Positions 4,837 through 29,788 of a stretch of 40,427 nt of DNA are shown piece by piece; position 1 is the first letter of the stretch; each line of letters starts with the position of its first letter. Source of the stretch: an uncultured Lachnospiraceae bacterium (GTDB lineage: Bacteria > Bacillota > Clostridia > Lachnospirales > Lachnospiraceae); NCBI GenBank assembly GCA_947630085.1, contig CANRGP010000011.1:1-40427 (forward strand). Direction: 5' to 3'. The notes below the pieces were generated by a model. The model was not told the origin of the DNA. It did not search any database and worked only from the letters and a program-made list of their open reading frames with translations. A program made the translations under genes and the position numbers.

Positions 4837-5856
4837 TCATTCGGACATTACCCGGAGCAGGCTCCGGATGCCGGCCTCCGTGGAAGCCCAGGAGGTCACG
4901 ATGCGGATGCTGGTCCGGTTGTCCGCCAGATGCCTGTCCGGGTGACACCCGAATTCCGCTTCCAGCCTTGCCGCCAGCGGATCGGGGACGATGGGGAAAA
5001 GCTGATTGGTCTGGGGAGGATAAGCGAACTCATATCCGAGCTTCTCCAGGGCCCTCTGGATCGTTTCGGCCGATTCCCGGGCCTGGGCAGCCAGCCGGTA
5101 ATAGAGCCCGTCCTGAAATAATTCTTCAAACTGGATCCCCAGGATCCATCCCTTCGCAAGCATGGCGCCTCTCTGCTTCATCAGGAAGCGGAAGCCGGGC
5201 TTTAATTCATCGTTTATGATTACCAGCGCTTCTCCCAGGAGGGCGCCGTTTTTTGTTCCCCCGATATAAAAGATATCCGTGAGCGCGGCGACATCGGCTA
5301 TGGTCAGATCATTTTCGGGACTTGCCAGGGCGGCCCCGAGTCTCGCGCCGTCCAGGAACAGATACAGGCCGTTCTGCCCGCAGAAATGGTACAGGGCCGC
5401 GAGCTCTTCCCTGGTGTATATCGTTCCCGTTTCAGTCGAATCGGAGATGTAGACCATCTTTGGCTGAACCATATGCTCGTCGGTATGGGAGGAAAGTATA
5501 TCGCGGATCATGGACGGGTTCAGCTTTCCGTCTGCGCTTTCCGCCGTCAGCACCTTATGCCCGGAGGCTTCCGCCGCGCCCGTTTCATGGACATTGATAT
5601 GTCCGGTGGAGGCCGCTATGACCGCCTGATAAGGCCGGAGGGCGGAGGCGATCACGGCGGAATTGGCCTGTGTTCCGCCTGCAAGGAAATGGATCTCGGC
5701 GGACGGATCCGCGGCCTCCTTCCGGATCAGATCAGCGGCGCGGGCCGAATGCCTGTCCAGACCGTAGCCCGGATTGGATTCCAGATTGTGTTCCGCCAAT
5801 GCCGCAAGGATGCGGGGATGCGCTCCCTCGCTGTAATCATCGGAAAAACGGTACAT
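4837..5856 (-). CDS. Threonine aldolase family PLP enzyme
   Basis: A 339-residue fold-type I PLP enzyme of the low-specificity threonine aldolase family, which splits L-threonine or L-allo-threonine into glycine and acetaldehyde. The PLP lysine is K202 in IGGTKNG, the PLP-ring aspartate is D169 in LFLDGARLG, and LAGGTQAN near residue 58 binds the phosphate. Length fits the family. It is read towards udk, with only 22 bases between the two stop codons. A related beta-eliminating lyase activity cannot be excluded from motifs alone. Confidence 0.88.
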   Translation of the reverse strand: MYRFSDDYSEGAHPRILAALAEHNLESNPGYGLDRHSARAADLIRKEAADPSAEIHFLAGGTQANSAVIASALRPYQAVIAASTGHINVHETGAAEASGHKVLTAESADGKLNPSMIRDILSSHTDEHMVQPKMVYISDSTETGTIYTREELAALYHFCGQNGLYLFLDGARLGAALASPENDLTIADVAALTDIFYIGGTKNGALLGEALVIINDELKPGFRFLMKQRGAMLAKGWILGIQFEELFQDGLYYRLAAQARESAETIQRALEKLGYEFAYPPQTNQLFPIVPDPLAARLEAEFGCHPDRHLADNRTSIRIVTSWASTEAGIRSLLRVMSE

Positions 5857-5982
5857 GAGAAAACTCCTTTCTTTATCCTGCCTGCTGTTTACGGAACCAT
5901 TTTACCATTCTTTCCGCTTTTTTTCTACTTTTGTTTTCCGGGGTCCGGGGATCGTCCGCGCGGCCCGAAGATCTTTCCGGGG

Positions 5983-6010
5983 TTTACTTTTTTCCGGTTT
6001 GTGGTACAAT
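5983..6010 (+). promoter_or_regulatory. Promoter of the MYG1-family gene
   Basis: TTTACT at 5983-5988 and TACAAT at 6005-6010 with a 16-base spacer. This places a transcription start near 6017, about 60 bases before the chosen ATG at 6080, and argues against the longer reading frame beginning at 5855. Confidence 0.6.
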
Positions 6011-6079
6011 TCAGTTATGCCATATGCGATGCTTCCGAAATGCTTCAACCGGCAAAAAAGGTTACAGATGGAGGAGAAC

Positions 6080-7033
6080 ATGAGCGAAATCAAGGAAAAT
6101 CAGATGTGCTTGCACGAAAAAGGCTGCAAAAATATTCAAGAGGGTACAAAGGTTATAACGGTGATGCGGCATGACGGTCTTCCCGATCCGGTCCCGGAGG
6201 ATGAGGTACCCGTGCCGGATCAGGGCTTTACTCACGCCGGGACGTTTCACGCGGACGATGTGTTTTCCACGGCGCTCCTCCGGATCCTGAATCCCAGGTT
6301 CCAGGTATTCAGGGGGAGCCGGGTCCCGGATGATTTCTGCGGCATTGTTTATGATATCGGGCTGGGAGAGTTTGACCATCATCAGGCGGATGCGAGAAAG
6401 CGCCCCAACGGCATCGGCTATGCCGCGTTCGGGCTTTTGTGGGAAAAGTACGGCCCCAGGCTGGTGGGGGATGCGGAAGCCGCGGACTTTGACGAGGCGT
6501 TTGTAAGCGCTCTCGACGATGCGGACAACGGAGGGCATCCCTGCGTTCTTTCCGAGGCTGTCGCCTGGTTCAATCCGGAGTGGGACAGCATGGATTCGTC
6601 CGACGAAAGGTTTGTGGAGGCGGTCGGATACGCGGAGAGCATCCTGCGCCATTATCTTTCTCAGTTCGAGGCTCAGAAACGGGCGGAGGAGGAGGTGCGC
6701 GAGGCGATGGAAAGAAGCACGAATTCCGTGGTCGTTCTGGAAAGATTTGTCCCATGGCAGTCCGTTCTGACGCCGACCGACAAGAAGTTCTGCGTGTATC
6801 CCTCCAACCGCGGAGGATGGTCCGGACAGGGCGTTCCCGTGGCTCCCAGATCGTTCGCCACCAAGATCCCCTTCCCCGAGGAGTGGGCGGGAGCCGATGC
6901 GGAGGCGCTGCACCGGATCGATCCCGGCCTGAATTTCTGCCATAAGGCGCGCTTTCTGATCAGCGCTTCCGACAAGGAGACGGCGGTGAGAATGTGCCTG
7001 AAGGCGGAAGAGATCTGCAATAAAAAACAGTAA
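6080..7033 (+). CDS. MYG1 family protein (UPF0160, DHH-like metal hydrolase)
   Basis: A 317-residue protein of the MYG1/UPF0160 family, which is related to DHH phosphoesterases and in eukaryotes acts as a 3'-5' RNA exonuclease. Metal-binding motifs are THAGTFHADDVF (H57, D59, D60) and GEFDHHQ further on; PNGIGYAAFGLLW and ALDDADNG are family hallmarks. The ATG at 6080 has a textbook GGAGG five bases upstream; an in-frame ATG at 6068 overlaps that site. The frame is open back to 5855 but crosses the promoter, so those residues are not real. The N-terminal stretch up to about residue 50, with two cysteines, is longer than usual. Bacterial role is not established. Confidence 0.87.
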   Translation: MSEIKENQMCLHEKGCKNIQEGTKVITVMRHDGLPDPVPEDEVPVPDQGFTHAGTFHADDVFSTALLRILNPRFQVFRGSRVPDDFCGIVYDIGLGEFDHHQADARKRPNGIGYAAFGLLWEKYGPRLVGDAEAADFDEAFVSALDDADNGGHPCVLSEAVAWFNPEWDSMDSSDERFVEAVGYAESILRHYLSQFEAQKRAEEEVREAMERSTNSVVVLERFVPWQSVLTPTDKKFCVYPSNRGGWSGQGVPVAPRSFATKIPFPEEWAGADAEALHRIDPGLNFCHKARFLISASDKETAVRMCLKAEEICNKKQ

Positions 7034-10047: not shown

Positions 10048-10120
10048 AACCTGTACCCTGTTTAACCTATTTGGAAATAAAAAGGTTTCTAATCATGCCA
10101 TTTTTTTCAGGGTACAGGTT
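10048..10120. repeat. Long-armed 13-base inverted repeat
   Basis: AACCTGTACCCTG (10048-10060) is matched exactly by CAGGGTACAGGTT (10108-10120), with 47 AT-rich bases between. It lies between the divergent esterase operon and the secreted-peptide gene. The right arm adjoins the best -10-like sequence (TATATA, 10120-10125) of the peptide gene. It could be a pair of operator half-sites, a transcript hairpin or a small mobile-element relic. A second small inverted repeat, CGGAG / CTCCG (10151-10155, 10166-10170), lies just downstream. Confidence 0.8.
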
Positions 10121-10195
10121 ATATAGAATGAGAATGAAGATCAGAAAGAGCGGAGGACATACGTTCTCCGTTTGGCGAAAATAAAGGAGGACAAA

Positions 10196-10363
10196 ATGAT
10201 GAAAAAGAACCTTTGGGCAGGCGTAAAAAGAGTATTGGCGTGCATGACGGCGCTGGCCATCCTGGCAGCGGCGGGAAGCGCGGCGGCGCAGAGCAGGGCA
10301 ACCTCAAGGCCGGCCGTGCAGGTGTGCGTTGAAGAGGTTATAGACGGAGAGGCTCGCTACTAA
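10196..10363 (+). CDS. Small secreted peptide precursor (55 aa)
   Basis: A 55-residue peptide with a strong AAAGGAGG ribosome site five bases before the first of two ATG codons (10196, 10199). It has a Sec-type signal: positive N-terminus (MMKK...KR), hydrophobic core from about residue 13 to 26, and a small-residue c-region GSAAA predicting cleavage before Q32. The 24-residue remainder includes one cysteine and ends VEEVIDGEARY. I recognise no family. It ends 4 bases inside the stop end of the oppositely read HTH/TPR regulator (10360-10363), an arrangement like peptide/RRNPP-regulator pairs such as some shp/rgg loci. A role as signalling propeptide is inference; it might also be a secreted hypothetical. 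Confidence 0.65.
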   Translation: MMKKNLWAGVKRVLACMTALAILAAAGSAAAQSRATSRPAVQVCVEEVIDGEARY

Positions 10364-11676
10364 TCATTTATCTGGATATGGAAGGCATTTAAAAAGCCGT
10401 TCCTTAAAATCAAGGCGTTGGGCCGGTACCCAAGCAGGTTGTTCAGGTTGATGGAGTAGGTGGCAAGAAGCATACTCTCCTCGGCATGGGACGGAGAGAC
10501 CTCCATAAGCGCCTGGCAGCGGTAGAACAGCAGGGAGGCCAGGGTTTCAAGATTATAGTACATGACTGACCGCCCGGTCAAATACTGGCCGGTCATCTCT
10601 AGAAAGGCGTCATACTGCTTGTGCCGGTAGAGCATCCGGGCCTGGGTCCGCACCGTGATCGGAAGGATCTGCACCTGGAGCATTGCATCTGGACGGACCC
10701 GCTTTATGTATTCGGTGATATGGCAGAAGTACAGGCTGCACATATCGAAGCTGTCGAGGCAGCGGTAAGCAATGGCGATGCAGTTCAGGATGGAGAGCTC
10801 CTCCCATCCCAGGCGGAAGCAGCCGGCCTGGTAGATGTCGAAGTCGGGAAGAGTGTGGCGGAGGGCCTCCTTCAGCGCCTCGATCCTCTGGGCGGGGTCG
10901 CGGACACACAGGGCGGAGGCCACCAGGTAGTCCTGGTAGTAGAGGCGGCTCGCGGGATCGATGATCTGCTTCATGCTGTCCAGATAGTCGTTTACCAGAT
11001 TCTCGGGGAGGGTCCGTGTGTGCAGGAGCCTGAACTTCAGGTCGTGCAGCCGGGCCTCCTTTTCGTTTCCCCAGAACGAGAATATCCGTTCGGTGACGCC
11101 CAGCCTCTGGAGGAGGATCTCCGTCATGGCGATGTCGGGCTGGAGTTTTCCGCTCTCGATCTTTGACATCTTGGATTTGCTGCAGAGTCCCAGGCAGAGC
11201 TGGCGGAGGGAAACGTGCTGCTCGGTGCGAAGGTCGTGGATCAGGTCGCCGAGAGTGTAGACGTCGTCCGTATCGGCGTTGAAGATCCCGTCGGAGAAGC
11301 CGTCGGCTCCGGTGACCTCCGGAAAGGGGAAGGACTCCGCGGCCGCGTTGGGGAGCTTTTTCATATAGTCGGACATGGGAAAGTCCGTGCGCTGGATCAG
11401 AAGGTCCCTGCAGGCGTTGGCGTAGCAGCATCCGATGGCGTGGGCGGAATAGAAGACGGCCTTTATGTGGAAGGAAGCCTCCTCGTCCTGCCCCAGGAAA
11501 TGGCAGCACAGCCCGTACAGGAACGTGATCTCAAAAAGAGAAGCCGAATTCCAGTGAAGGGGCGTGATCTGCCTGTATTTTTCCGCGATCCTGTGCGCAT
11601 CTTCGTATCTGCGGACGGACAGGAGGTACTTGATATGTACGATCTGCGCATCCGTCAGAAGAAGATCCTTCTCCAT
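10360..11676 (-). CDS. HTH/TPR regulator, C-terminal part after in-frame TAG
   Basis: A 438-residue frame with an XRE-type helix-turn-helix in the middle (about residues 142-200, with SLRQLCLGLCSKSKMSKIESG) flanked by helical, TPR-like repeats. It lies in the same reading frame as the 171-residue HTH protein upstream. Between them are one TAG (11766-11764) and 29 sense codons, all open and protein-like. The ATG at 11676 has no Shine-Dalgarno sequence. I therefore think these are one gene of about 639 codons, architecture HTH-TPR-HTH-TPR, interrupted by a nonsense codon. The fold resembles peptide-binding RRNPP regulators (Rgg, PlcR, PrgX). The 3' end overlaps the secreted-peptide gene by 4 bases. 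Confidence 0.75.
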   Translation of the reverse strand: MEKDLLLTDAQIVHIKYLLSVRRYEDAHRIAEKYRQITPLHWNSASLFEITFLYGLCCHFLGQDEEASFHIKAVFYSAHAIGCCYANACRDLLIQRTDFPMSDYMKKLPNAAAESFPFPEVTGADGFSDGIFNADTDDVYTLGDLIHDLRTEQHVSLRQLCLGLCSKSKMSKIESGKLQPDIAMTEILLQRLGVTERIFSFWGNEKEARLHDLKFRLLHTRTLPENLVNDYLDSMKQIIDPASRLYYQDYLVASALCVRDPAQRIEALKEALRHTLPDFDIYQAGCFRLGWEELSILNCIAIAYRCLDSFDMCSLYFCHITEYIKRVRPDAMLQVQILPITVRTQARMLYRHKQYDAFLEMTGQYLTGRSVMYYNLETLASLLFYRCQALMEVSPSHAEESMLLATYSINLNNLLGYRPNALILRNGFLNAFHIQIND

Positions 11677-11763
11677 CGGAGAGAAGTGGCTTGCCTCCAG
11701 ATAGGCCAGAAGCTGTCCGCAGATCCTGCGGCAATCCTCGGGCGCCCCGTTATAGAGGCTTTC

Positions 11764-12279
11764 CTAGGCTATGGCGGTCAGGATCTGGAGCTCGTTCTGC
11801 GTCAGAAGAAGCTTCCCGAAATCATAGAGGTCGATCGCGGGGCGAGTGATATGGATGGCCGTTAAAAGAGCATCAAAAATAAGCCTGTGGCTGCACCGGT
11901 AAGAGCGAAACTGCAGGCGGCAGTGGAGTAAAAGCCATTCCTGATAATACAGCCGGTTATCGGCCCAGTTCTGGTCCTCCACCTTCTGAAGCTCTTCATA
12001 GGCGGGGCCCAGCTGCCACGAATCCAGATGGAACCGGGCCAGCTTGATGGCGTAAAAGCTGTTGAAATCGCTGCGGCTCGCAAAGATGGGATATCTCTCG
12101 CAGGGAGCGCCGGCGTGTTCCATCAGCGCCTGAAAGGTGGCCGGACTGACTCCGGATGTGCCGGATTCGATTCGGGAGAGTGCCTGAGTAGAGCAGACCC
12201 CTTCGGAGAGCTGCTCCTGTGTCAGGCCGGCTTTCAGCCTTGCTTCACGAATAATATCTTTTGCGCTTCCAACACTCAT
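11764..12279 (-). CDS. XRE-family HTH/TPR regulator, N-terminal part before in-frame TAG
   Basis: A 171-residue frame beginning with a clear XRE DNA-binding domain (residues about 7-62: IIREARLKAGLTQEQLSEG then ALSRIESGTSG), followed by helical TPR-like segments (YYQEWLLLHCRLQF, ALLTAIHI). It stops at TAG 11766-11764 inside what should be a helical repeat. The start has GAGGAG eight bases upstream and a near-consensus promoter at 12325-12353. The truncated product could still bind DNA but would lack most of the putative peptide-binding TPR array. See the downstream frame at 10360-11676 for the rest. Confidence 0.8.
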   Translation of the reverse strand: MSVGSAKDIIREARLKAGLTQEQLSEGVCSTQALSRIESGTSGVSPATFQALMEHAGAPCERYPIFASRSDFNSFYAIKLARFHLDSWQLGPAYEELQKVEDQNWADNRLYYQEWLLLHCRLQFRSYRCSHRLIFDALLTAIHITRPAIDLYDFGKLLLTQNELQILTAIA

Positions 12280-12353: not shown

Positions 12354-12607
12354 TGAAACAGACGGCACCTCTGCGGCGAGAAAGTGACTGTCGATTTATG
12401 TTTCCAGATTATACATCACGGGGCATAAAAAAGGGGGCGATATAATAAAATATTGGCATTGTTCGCGCAAAACGAAAAAGAACTTGTATTGTTTATAAAT
12501 GATGTGAAAAACAGCCAGAATTTTTTGTAAAAGTTTAAATAATTGCAGACAATTAAGACAAAATTAAAGAATACACAAAAAATCTAATATTTTATCAAAA
12601 AAAAGTA

Positions 12608-12636
12608 TTGACAAATCCGGGCGGACCCGCTATAAT
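12608..12636 (+). promoter_or_regulatory. Perfect-consensus sigma-A promoter of an orphan transcript
   Basis: TTGACA (12608-12613), 17 bases, TATAAT (12631-12636): a full match to the sigma-A consensus, preceded by about 100 bases of A/T-rich DNA that could act as an UP element. It points away from the HTH/TPR gene into a stretch with no ordinary gene. Confidence 0.85.
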
Positions 12637-12699
12637 AAAACCATCAAAACAAGAGAGACAGAAAGCACCAGACAAGTGCAGAGAAGAGTTTAAAAATCC

Positions 12700-12983
12700 A
12701 ACGAAAGGAGGTACAGTCCAAAGAACACGTAAGCTTCGTTCCCGCTTGACGGATATGTGAGAGCCGGAACCAGGACACCAGATCTACAGCGGAAAACCCT
12801 GATAAAGATTCTAAGGCAGTTACCGATTCACCACTTTATGATATGACGAGAAAGTATGATAAAGGAAGCGTGGCACCGGGACAACGGTTAGAAAGATACG
12901 GATGAAAAGAGAAAAGGGAGACGGGTTGTAGAATGGATATACAATTTCATATAGATACTATAACGAAACGGAGGTACAGTCCA
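12700..12983 (+). repeat. Two direct copies of an SD-containing 21/22-base element
   Basis: AACGAAAGGAGGTACAGTCC followed by A at 12700-12720 recurs at 12962-12983 with one extra C after AACGAAA. The copies are 262 bases apart in the orphan transcript. In the second copy a GTG (12984) follows GGAGG at proper distance but opens only five codons; in the first copy the corresponding codon is AAG. Confidence 0.85.
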
Positions 12984-13000
12984 GTGGACGGGATAGTATA

Positions 13001-13051: not shown

Positions 13052-13990
13052 TTATTCTTCCACACCCTCCAGATCAAACGGCGGCGTGTATTCTTCACGG
13101 GCGCTGCTTTTTTTCTGCATATATCCGGTGTCGAGCCCGAGATCCAAAGCCGCGTTCACGACGCTTTCGTATTCGTAGGTGGTGATCCGGCGTCCCAGCT
13201 GCGGGTGCCCCACGGCCTGATAGGCGGGGGTGTACTGGCTGAGAAGGCTGAGATAGTAGCCGCCGGGCGGAAGGTTTTCTTTCATCCAGCGGAGAAGGCG
13301 GATGGAGTCCTTTCTGGCGCCGGGGAGGACCAGGTGCCGGATAATGACGCCGGAGCGCATAAGGCCGCGGGAATCTATGACGGGAGGTCCGGCCAGCTCG
13401 ACCATCTTTGCCACCGCGCGGGAGGCGTGGGCGAAATAGTCCGGAGCGGCGGAGTAAGCGGAGGAAAGCCCGGGGTCGAAGTATTTCAGGTCCGGCATCC
13501 AGATATCGATGTAACCTGCGAGCGCCTCTATAACCTGTGTCCGTTCATAACCTCCGCAGTTTACGGCGACCGGGATCTGCAGACGGTCCCCCGCCGTGTC
13601 GAGAGCCCTGACGATAGACGGCAGATAGTGGGTGGGCGTCACCAGATTGATGTTATATGCGCCCTGGCTCTGCAGCCGCAGAAAGATGTCCGCGAGCCGG
13701 GCGGCCGATATTTCTCTGCCGAAATTTTCATGACTGACGGTGTAGTTCTGACAGAAGCGGCAGCGAAGCGTACAGCCGCTGAAAAAGACGGTTCCGCTCC
13801 CTCCCGGACCTTCCGGGTCCGGGCCGCTGATACAGGGCTCCTCCCACTTATGAAGGGCCGCTCTGGCTACCTTTACGCGGTCCGTTCCGGAGCAGAAGCC
13901 GGGGCGCAGGGCGCGGTCCGCCCCGCACATACGCGGGCAGAGACGGCAGCCGCGGTACTGGTTTTCGGATAGGATATCCTGCTCGGCCAT
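13052..13990 (-). CDS. Radical SAM protein, PflA/PflX-like activase
   Basis: A 312-residue radical SAM protein. The cluster motif is SGCTLRCRFCQN, giving CxxxCxxC at C73, C77 and C80, the spacing that binds the SAM-coordinating 4Fe-4S cluster. Upstream cysteines C15, C18, C22 and C33 may bind another metal site, as in the PflX/YjjW-like branch annotated as putative pyruvate-formate-lyase activating enzymes. LVTPTHYLPSIV and IWMPDLKYFDP are typical of that branch. No glycyl-radical enzyme lies nearby, so the target is unknown. Transcribed alone, with the terminator at 13001-13048. Confidence 0.85.
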   Translation of the reverse strand: MAEQDILSENQYRGCRLCPRMCGADRALRPGFCSGTDRVKVARAALHKWEEPCISGPDPEGPGGSGTVFFSGCTLRCRFCQNYTVSHENFGREISAARLADIFLRLQSQGAYNINLVTPTHYLPSIVRALDTAGDRLQIPVAVNCGGYERTQVIEALAGYIDIWMPDLKYFDPGLSSAYSAAPDYFAHASRAVAKMVELAGPPVIDSRGLMRSGVIIRHLVLPGARKDSIRLLRWMKENLPPGGYYLSLLSQYTPAYQAVGHPQLGRRITTYEYESVVNAALDLGLDTGYMQKKSSAREEYTPPFDLEGVEE

Positions 13991-29557: not shown

Positions 29558-29731
29558 ATATGCTTCTGCGCCGGGAGGCGCCGGCGTCTTCGGACGCCGA
29601 GGGAACCGACTGAGACTGTCGGGCTATCCCAGTAACCGTGAAGCGGACGAAAGGACAATCAAGCCACTGCCGAAAGGTGGGAAGGCGTCCGAGTAGGAGG
29701 AGGCTAAGCCGGGAGACCTGTCTGCATATGA
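29558..29731 (+). promoter_or_regulatory. Cobalamin riboswitch aptamer
   Basis: The P1 stem is CATATGC (29558-29564) with GCATATG (29725-29731). Inside are the conserved parts of adenosylcobalamin aptamers: GAGGGAACC, AAGCCACTG, GGTGGGAAGG, and the B12 box AGCCGGGAGACCTGTC just before the closing P1 strand. It controls the btuFCD-type operon through the terminator at 29789-29819. The middle part (about 29612-29640) departs from the usual form. Confidence 0.93.
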
Positions 29732-29788
29732 AACACTTCTGGGGTTGGGTGGGAACTGCACGGGCCTGTGCGAGCCTGTGTGATTTTG

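Follow-up and report, generated by a model that had tools for sequence, protein, structure and literature searches.

A candidate pheromone–receptor pair in Lachnospiraceae with a receptor of two PlcR-like units

In the 40,427-nucleotide stretch of DNA from an uncultured Lachnospiraceae bacterium that was analysed here (the window), a small ORF for a peptide of exported type converges on the gene of a transcriptional regulator, and the locus is quite probably a pheromone–receptor pair, similar to the RRNPP systems, with a receptor built from two PlcR-like units. The convergent ORF of exported type, the two-unit PlcR-like build of the receptor, a palindrome with its spacing to the promoter, and the clusters of neighbouring genes are all features of the sequence itself, in the window or in its relatives.

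The putative pheromone precursor is encoded by an ORF of 55 codons on the forward strand (10196–10363), an assignment based on its sequence, its codon use and its presence at the same place in orthologues. The ATG is preceded by AAAGGAGG, with a GGAGG ribosome site at 10186–10190 (forward strand), and the product runs from a basic start through the hydrophobic core VLACMTALAILA and an Ala-rich stretch, which could hold a candidate signal peptidase cut site, to a tail ending in VQVCVEEVIDGEARY. The stops of this ORF and of the regulator gene, on opposite strands, have 4 bases in common (10360–10363). A first-pass annotation of this DNA had pointed out the 55-codon ORF with its ribosome site, export-type signal and final VIDGEARY, as well as the tail-to-tail overlap with the regulator by 4 bases, and both descriptions hold in the sequence. 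The same annotation had made its proposal depend on the ORF being coding: in a codon model trained on 16 long ORFs of the window, chosen by us, the log-odds are +5.4 in the peptide frame and negative in the other five, so that the ORF looks coding, and an equally high value was reached in 8 of 1000 base shuffles of the ORF. In the only near pair of relatives compared for synonymous and non-synonymous change (loci L044 and L046), the peptide DNA is identical.

Relatives of the regulator are scattered. Within the genus it was found in 2 of 26 genomes, that of the window and one other (L038); in the family, 16 of 397 genomes match the C-terminal part at E 1e-10 and 37 of 397 match the profile at E 1e-15, four of the latter, the window's included, belonging to the close clade; in the class, 5 of 391 genomes match, again including the window's. 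A scan of contigs with a profile built from four intact orthologues gave at least 37 loci; the 13 listed with a near-full-length match (L034–L046), a number that is a lower bound, were used as close orthologues, and 24 loci with short matches were dropped. The close loci come from Lachnospiraceae, Acetatifactor, Roseburia inulinivorans DSM 16841 (L036), Butyrivibrio and Falcatimonas, the Falcatimonas genome (G096) being assigned to Clostridiaceae by the tree tool, yet listed in the family of the window; L044 and L046 are near-identical. A search of plasmids with the N-terminal part as the query gave no relative, and neither did a search of viral contigs.

The small ORF is kept in place beside these regulators. 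By eye, an ORF resembling an exported peptide lies on the opposite strand at the 3′ end of the regulator in 11 of the 13 close orthologues, and no peptide ORF was seen there in L038 and L041. A strict rule was also applied, asking for at least two K/R, a hydrophobic core of 12 residues, a ribosome site, a length of 35–90 codons and a stop within −60 to +120 nt. It holds in 8/13 close orthologues against 3/229 other genes (Fisher p 8e-10), and it misses L036, L040 and L045 among those recognized by eye. The control genes are the longest non-overlapping ORFs, some of which may not be genes; one of the three positives among them (L028) is a distant member of the family, and the distant regulators L029–L031, also included in the control, were all negative. 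Treating L044 and L046 as a single locus and taking L028 out of the control changes the figures to 7/12 against 2/228 (p 3e-9). Among 39 distant loci (35 from the longer family and class listings, plus L028–L031), the strict rule holds for 13 of 20 fused two-unit genes, for all three adjacent unit pairs and for 3 of 16 solitary units; the distant two-unit receptors, 16/23 altogether, thus differ both from the control (2/228, p 5e-18) and from the solitary units (3/16, p 0.003). All the 3′-side matches listed at the distant loci are convergent. L027, an order-level relative outside the 39-locus count, has a 21-codon ORF at that place instead. As a side observation, the two-unit regulator occurs twice in a row in L044 and L046 (5194–10893), and a peptide ORF that follows the strict rule is found at the second copy only.

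Conservation of the small ORF beside orthologous regulators, on which the annotation had staked its case, was therefore found both near and far (8/13 by the strict rule, 11/13 by eye, 16/23 among distant two-unit receptors). Its broader claim, that a secreted peptide and a regulator of RRNPP type form a pair, is favoured by an ORF that stays in place and has codons of coding type, but it loses ground with L038, the one further member of the genus that carries the regulator, in which the absence of the ORF counts against a pair. A small precursor gene adjacent to the receptor, as in RRNPP systems, is thus present, its export signal being recognized by sequence only, and the 4-nt overlap in the window agrees with the convergent, overlapping peptide genes of group III Rgg/SHP systems. 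In the close orthologues the stops overlap by 4–6 nt in 6/13 loci and are separated by gaps of 29–76 nt in 5/13. Overlaps of this kind, recurring in many loci, could indicate that the arrangement works through RNA, that the regulator is tuned by antisense RNA or convergent transcription and that the peptide is incidental; this is very unlikely, because export signal and ribosome site together occur far above control, L037, L043, L044 and L045 have gaps of 29–76 nt and no overlap, and the codon use of the window ORF looks coding.

In the window as assembled, the regulator gene itself is interrupted. On the reverse strand, 12279–10360 is split by an in-frame TAG (11764–11766) into 171 and 438 codons: the upstream part (11764–12279) carries the first HTH (about 12252–12115) and the start of unit 1, and the downstream part (10360–11676) the rest of unit 1, the second HTH (about 11253–11089) and a TPR-like unit 2. 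The XRE HTH of the annotation is present (Pfam HTH_3, E 2e-10), but the single open frame of an HTH/TPR regulator is not, given the TAG, and the usual order of one HTH followed by TPR repeats, also proposed there, gives way to a two-unit protein with a second HTH. The C-terminal part has a weak match to Pfam RNPP_C (E 7e-4), below the cut-off of the family. A profile of intact relatives follows a single frame across both parts, with ‘1 TAG’ inside, and the orthologues aligned to the window regulator are intact and span both parts. Recoding of this TAG was set aside as unlikely, since TAG ends 2 of the 16 other window genes looked at as an ordinary stop; an independent start of the downstream part was also discarded, no start with a ribosome site being found in the first 200 codons past the TAG. 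The source assembly is a draft of 111 contigs, 79% complete, and the TAG may be genuine or a consensus error. The system is probably decaying here, because the receptor is interrupted by a stop and no cluster of the kind found in the relatives adjoins it.

In the close clade the regulator is one chain of 611–637 aa with the order HTH-TPR-HTH-TPR, and in three relatives it consists of two adjacent genes. The N-terminal part of the window regulator resembles the C-terminal unit (28% identity over query residues 140–302, E 1.5e-7) and this likeness, together with the two HTH domains, indicates a tandem of two HTH-TPR units. When a profile of 21 single-unit members was compared with solved structures, PlcR (2qfc) was by far the best match, aligned over positions 1–292 of 304 (E 8.6e-27); lower matches include ComR, the response regulator aspartate phosphatase H (RapH), many generic TPR proteins and entries titled only ‘Transcriptional regulator’, which we take to be Rgg proteins. 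The near-full-length match to PlcR comes through these single-unit relatives, more distant than the window clade, whose own 13-row profile reaches PlcR over the HTH only. At E 0.01, Pfam RNPP_C was matched by 13/21 single units and by 5/33 two-unit proteins; NCBIfam matches were mostly of HTH type and, in the sole row with cut-offs given, all lay far below the cut-off. An N-terminal HTH followed by a TPR domain, as in RRNPP receptors, is therefore found unit by unit. The window clade (611–637 aa) falls outside the 250–500 aa that RRNPP_detector keeps by default, a range that is the search rule of one tool and not a biochemical requirement, and the unfused pairs have 308–319 aa per gene.

The relationships among the units were examined in a tree of 89 units, made by a quick method and with several long branches, so that its deep order is unsure. 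The first halves of the distant fused proteins mostly fall into one group and their second halves mostly into another (support 98 for the second units, a weak 69 for the first), and in the unfused pairs L146, L147 and L153 the first genes group with the first halves and the second genes with the second halves; both halves of L142 and one of L170 lie outside the two groups. In the window clade, the first halves make up one clade and the second halves another (14 rows and support 100 in both cases), apart from the others. This grouping suggests that the two-unit receptor is old and was perhaps fused separately more than once. In L146, L147 and L153, moreover, the longest frames of the two adjacent PlcR-like genes overlap by 19 nt, and a convergent peptide of exported type adjoins the second receptor gene.

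A candidate operator is associated with these genes. The palindrome AAATGGAAA-N8-TTTCCATTT, first seen by reading the promoters of the family, precedes the regulator or the divergent operon in 10/13 loci (not in L035, L039 and L042) and the peptide gene in 6/11 (not in L035, L042, L044, L045 and L046). It was scored as present when at most 13 of 400 dinucleotide shuffles were as good, figures that are flattering because the consensus was read from the same sequences. In 59 relatives without the close regulator, the pattern GGAAAN{5,8}TTTCCATTT occurs 31 times, against 16 for the reversed pattern, that is about one per two genomes, so that a chance match within 300 nt of a given gene is rare; in four genomes with an intact regulator, the pattern is found at the locus or its operon in every case. 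In L042, the site precedes an operon of a radical SAM gene, an MFS gene and, lastly, the peptide. Additional matches away from the locus are four in G096, one in G204 and two in G338. Two of the four extra copies in G096 (loci L098 and L099) lie between convergent genes, far from the regulator, where the role of an operator makes little sense. In the genome of the window, the single match to the pattern lies elsewhere and not at the locus.

The position of the palindrome relative to the promoter was considered in 8 of the 11 peptide promoters; L035 and L042 were omitted because they have no site, and L046 as the twin of L044. In five of them (L034, L036, L037, L039, L044) the distance from the start of the right half-site to the start of a −10 hexamer, allowing one mismatch at most, is exactly 38 nt, an agreement with a chance of about 3e-7 by our own figure, which assumes 0.022 per position in A+T-rich DNA; the spacing is 40 in L045, 34 or 42 in L040 and 35 in L043. 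In the peptide promoters of L044 and L045, the right half-site alone is good. Among 10 divergent promoters, the hexamer is at 38–39 nt in L036, L038, L040, L041 and L044 and at 41 in L034; it is also at 38–39 before the second MFS gene of L040, and among the promoters on the regulator side it has this spacing in L044 only. A spacing of 38 nt sets the candidate site just upstream of the −35 region, an activator-like place.

The window holds a degraded copy of this operator on the forward strand, ATTTGGAAA-N8-TTTCTAATC (10069–10094), with 5 mismatches to the 18-base consensus, followed by the −10-like box TAGAAT (10124–10129, forward strand) exactly 38 nt after the start of its right half-site. 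The operator-like site alone is not significant (65/400 shuffles are as good), and site and box at 38 nt together are equalled in 3/4000 shuffles, or in 5/4000 if 37–39 nt is allowed, by a rule derived from the relatives and then applied to the window. No palindrome was found before the regulator of the window in the shuffle-tested promoter search. A perfect 13-nt inverted repeat (AACCTGTACCCTG / CAGGGTACAGGTT, at 10048–10060 and 10108–10120) flanks the operator-like site and may be another binding site. Its arm was also considered as a dispersed element and rejected: the 11-base core occurs 4 times in the genome, including the two copies at this site, and the reversed control occurs once.

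The genes around the receptor suggest what else might be controlled. Within about 4 kb of the regulator, radical SAM genes are present in 6/13 loci (L034, L037, L038, L040, L042, L043) and MFS-like genes in 5/13 (L036, L039, L040, L041, L042), so that 9/13 loci have one or the other; the neighbours were identified by Pfam in L034, L038, L040 and L042 and by similarity in the rest. The lone radical SAM gene near the regulator in the window (13052–13990) lies outside the two clusters of the relatives. This company raises an alternative in which the small ORF encodes one of the cluster's own products (a bacteriocin, a RiPP precursor or a small membrane peptide) under the control of the regulator and no ligand. 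The palindrome common to the small ORF and the RiPP-like operon would fit, as would L042, in which the small ORF comes last, behind the radical SAM and MFS genes, but we consider this unlikely: in L034, L038, L040 and L042 separate short ORFs, precursor-like in our reading, adjoin the radical SAM gene, and the small ORF stays with the receptor both in the distant family and in L036, L039, L044 and L045, where no radical SAM gene belonging to either of the two clusters was seen in the stretch analysed.

Some other features were recorded along the way. In L045, three short ORFs with Ala/Gly-rich ends and a bacteriocin-like look lie downstream of the palindrome (5566–6082, reverse strand). Solute-binding proteins of the peptide-uptake type (SBP_bac_5), a common family, are present in 5/5 genomes looked at and also in 11/14 control genomes. 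In the window, a Cobalamin riboswitch (79.9 bits) is found at 29559–29739 on the forward strand; 12600–12990 (forward strand) comprises a promoter-like stretch and, after it, about 350 nt with no convincing ORF, gave no Rfam match at the gathering score, and has two near-identical 17-nt pieces holding GGAGGTACAGTCC at 12704 and 12967.

The peptides of this family have 40–76 aa, a Sec-like signal and an acidic tail. In 30 tails, D/E make up 17.8% and K/R 4.2% of the residues; the corresponding values for long ORFs from these loci are 13.0% and 11.3%. A richness in hydrophobic residues up to the C-terminus, as in group III Rgg/SHP systems, is thus not found. No single core is common to the 30 tails compared, so that the signal would differ from species to species; L035, L037 and L039 have PCGD in common. 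The VIDGEARY ending is likewise not a conserved motif, since the tails are so variable between species. A cysteine motif was tried and dropped as too weak (Cys in 16/30 tails versus about 11 expected). The properties of the tails also bear on the idea of a toxin–antitoxin-like pair, in which the XRE regulator would guard a small hydrophobic peptide. A short peptide with a hydrophobic core does adjoin an XRE protein, some of whose HTH matches are to antitoxin models, but such a pair is highly improbable, as in 25/30 peptides more than 20 residues, acidic overall, follow the core, the single-unit profile matches PlcR over nearly its full length, and the candidate operator is common to divergent operons.

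If the locus is a pheromone–receptor pair, as we favour, the small peptide of intact relatives would be exported by Sec and trimmed outside, and an oligopeptide permease would bring the trimmed peptide back into the cell, where one of the receptor's TPR grooves would bind it. With its two HTHs the receptor would be a dimer by construction; it would sit on the palindrome just upstream of the −35 region and switch on its own peptide gene, giving positive feedback, and it would also activate the divergent operon, which in many cases encodes a transporter or a radical-SAM RiPP-like cluster. Export, trimming, re-import, binding, and activation rather than repression are steps that we infer by analogy with RRNPP systems.

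Among these systems, PlcR–PapR shares the HTH and TPR unit, the single-unit profile being aligned over nearly the whole of PlcR, and PapR too is a small exported precursor encoded beside the receptor gene, with a palindromic operator. The present family differs in having two units, in one chain or in adjacent genes, a convergent and often overlapping peptide gene, and variable acidic tails. Group III Rgg receptors are single units. The sections consulted of two papers on the group III Rgg/SHP systems of streptococci describe a peptide gene convergent with the 3′ end of the receptor gene and overlapping it, as seen here (PMC3679016, PMC13361665); the four SHPs given there are hydrophobic and of 22–26 aa, unlike the longer peptides with Sec-like signal and acidic tail found here. 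Moreover, RaS-RiPP clusters, streptide and others, are under Rgg/SHP control in streptococci according to the part of PMC13361665 used here, a similar case of a quorum-sensing receptor adjoining a radical-SAM peptide cluster, though a streptococcal one with another receptor architecture and other precursors. In Clostridium acetobutylicum, the available portion of PMC7376267 reports the Qsr/Qsp systems, clostridial RRNPP receptors with small precursors of 39–50 aa, each with one positively charged and one hydrophobic region; unlike the present receptors, each Qsr has one HTH motif and seven predicted TPRs, and towards their C-terminal ends the Qsp precursors have a conserved L, P and W, which the present peptides lack.

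No description of such peptide signalling in Lachnospiraceae, nor of this family of fused or tandem receptors, was found in the openly licensed literature searched, and the portions consulted of PMC9765709 and PMC12700828 contain no tandem receptor. In the corresponding portion of the RRNPP_detector paper, receptors of 250–500 aa are kept by default, and Lachnospiraceae are not named in the list of families with BGCs beside candidate systems (PMC10075063); two-unit receptors escape this filter, which may be why they have been overlooked.

A bolder reading, whose chances we put just short of even, makes this a separate class of peptide receptor. In it, a pair of diverged PlcR-like units, joined by fusion in no fewer than two lineages or still encoded by adjacent genes, would constitute an obligate heterodimer, usually as a single chain. 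With two grooves and two HTHs, such a receptor could recognize an asymmetric operator and perhaps tell apart two states of a single exported peptide, in a widespread and overlooked form of Lachnospiraceae signalling that switches on radical-SAM peptide products. Lachnospiraceae are major residents of the gut, and the candidate operator and the peptide ORFs offer a direct and testable way into the RiPP-like clusters of species that can be cultured, Roseburia inulinivorans among them.
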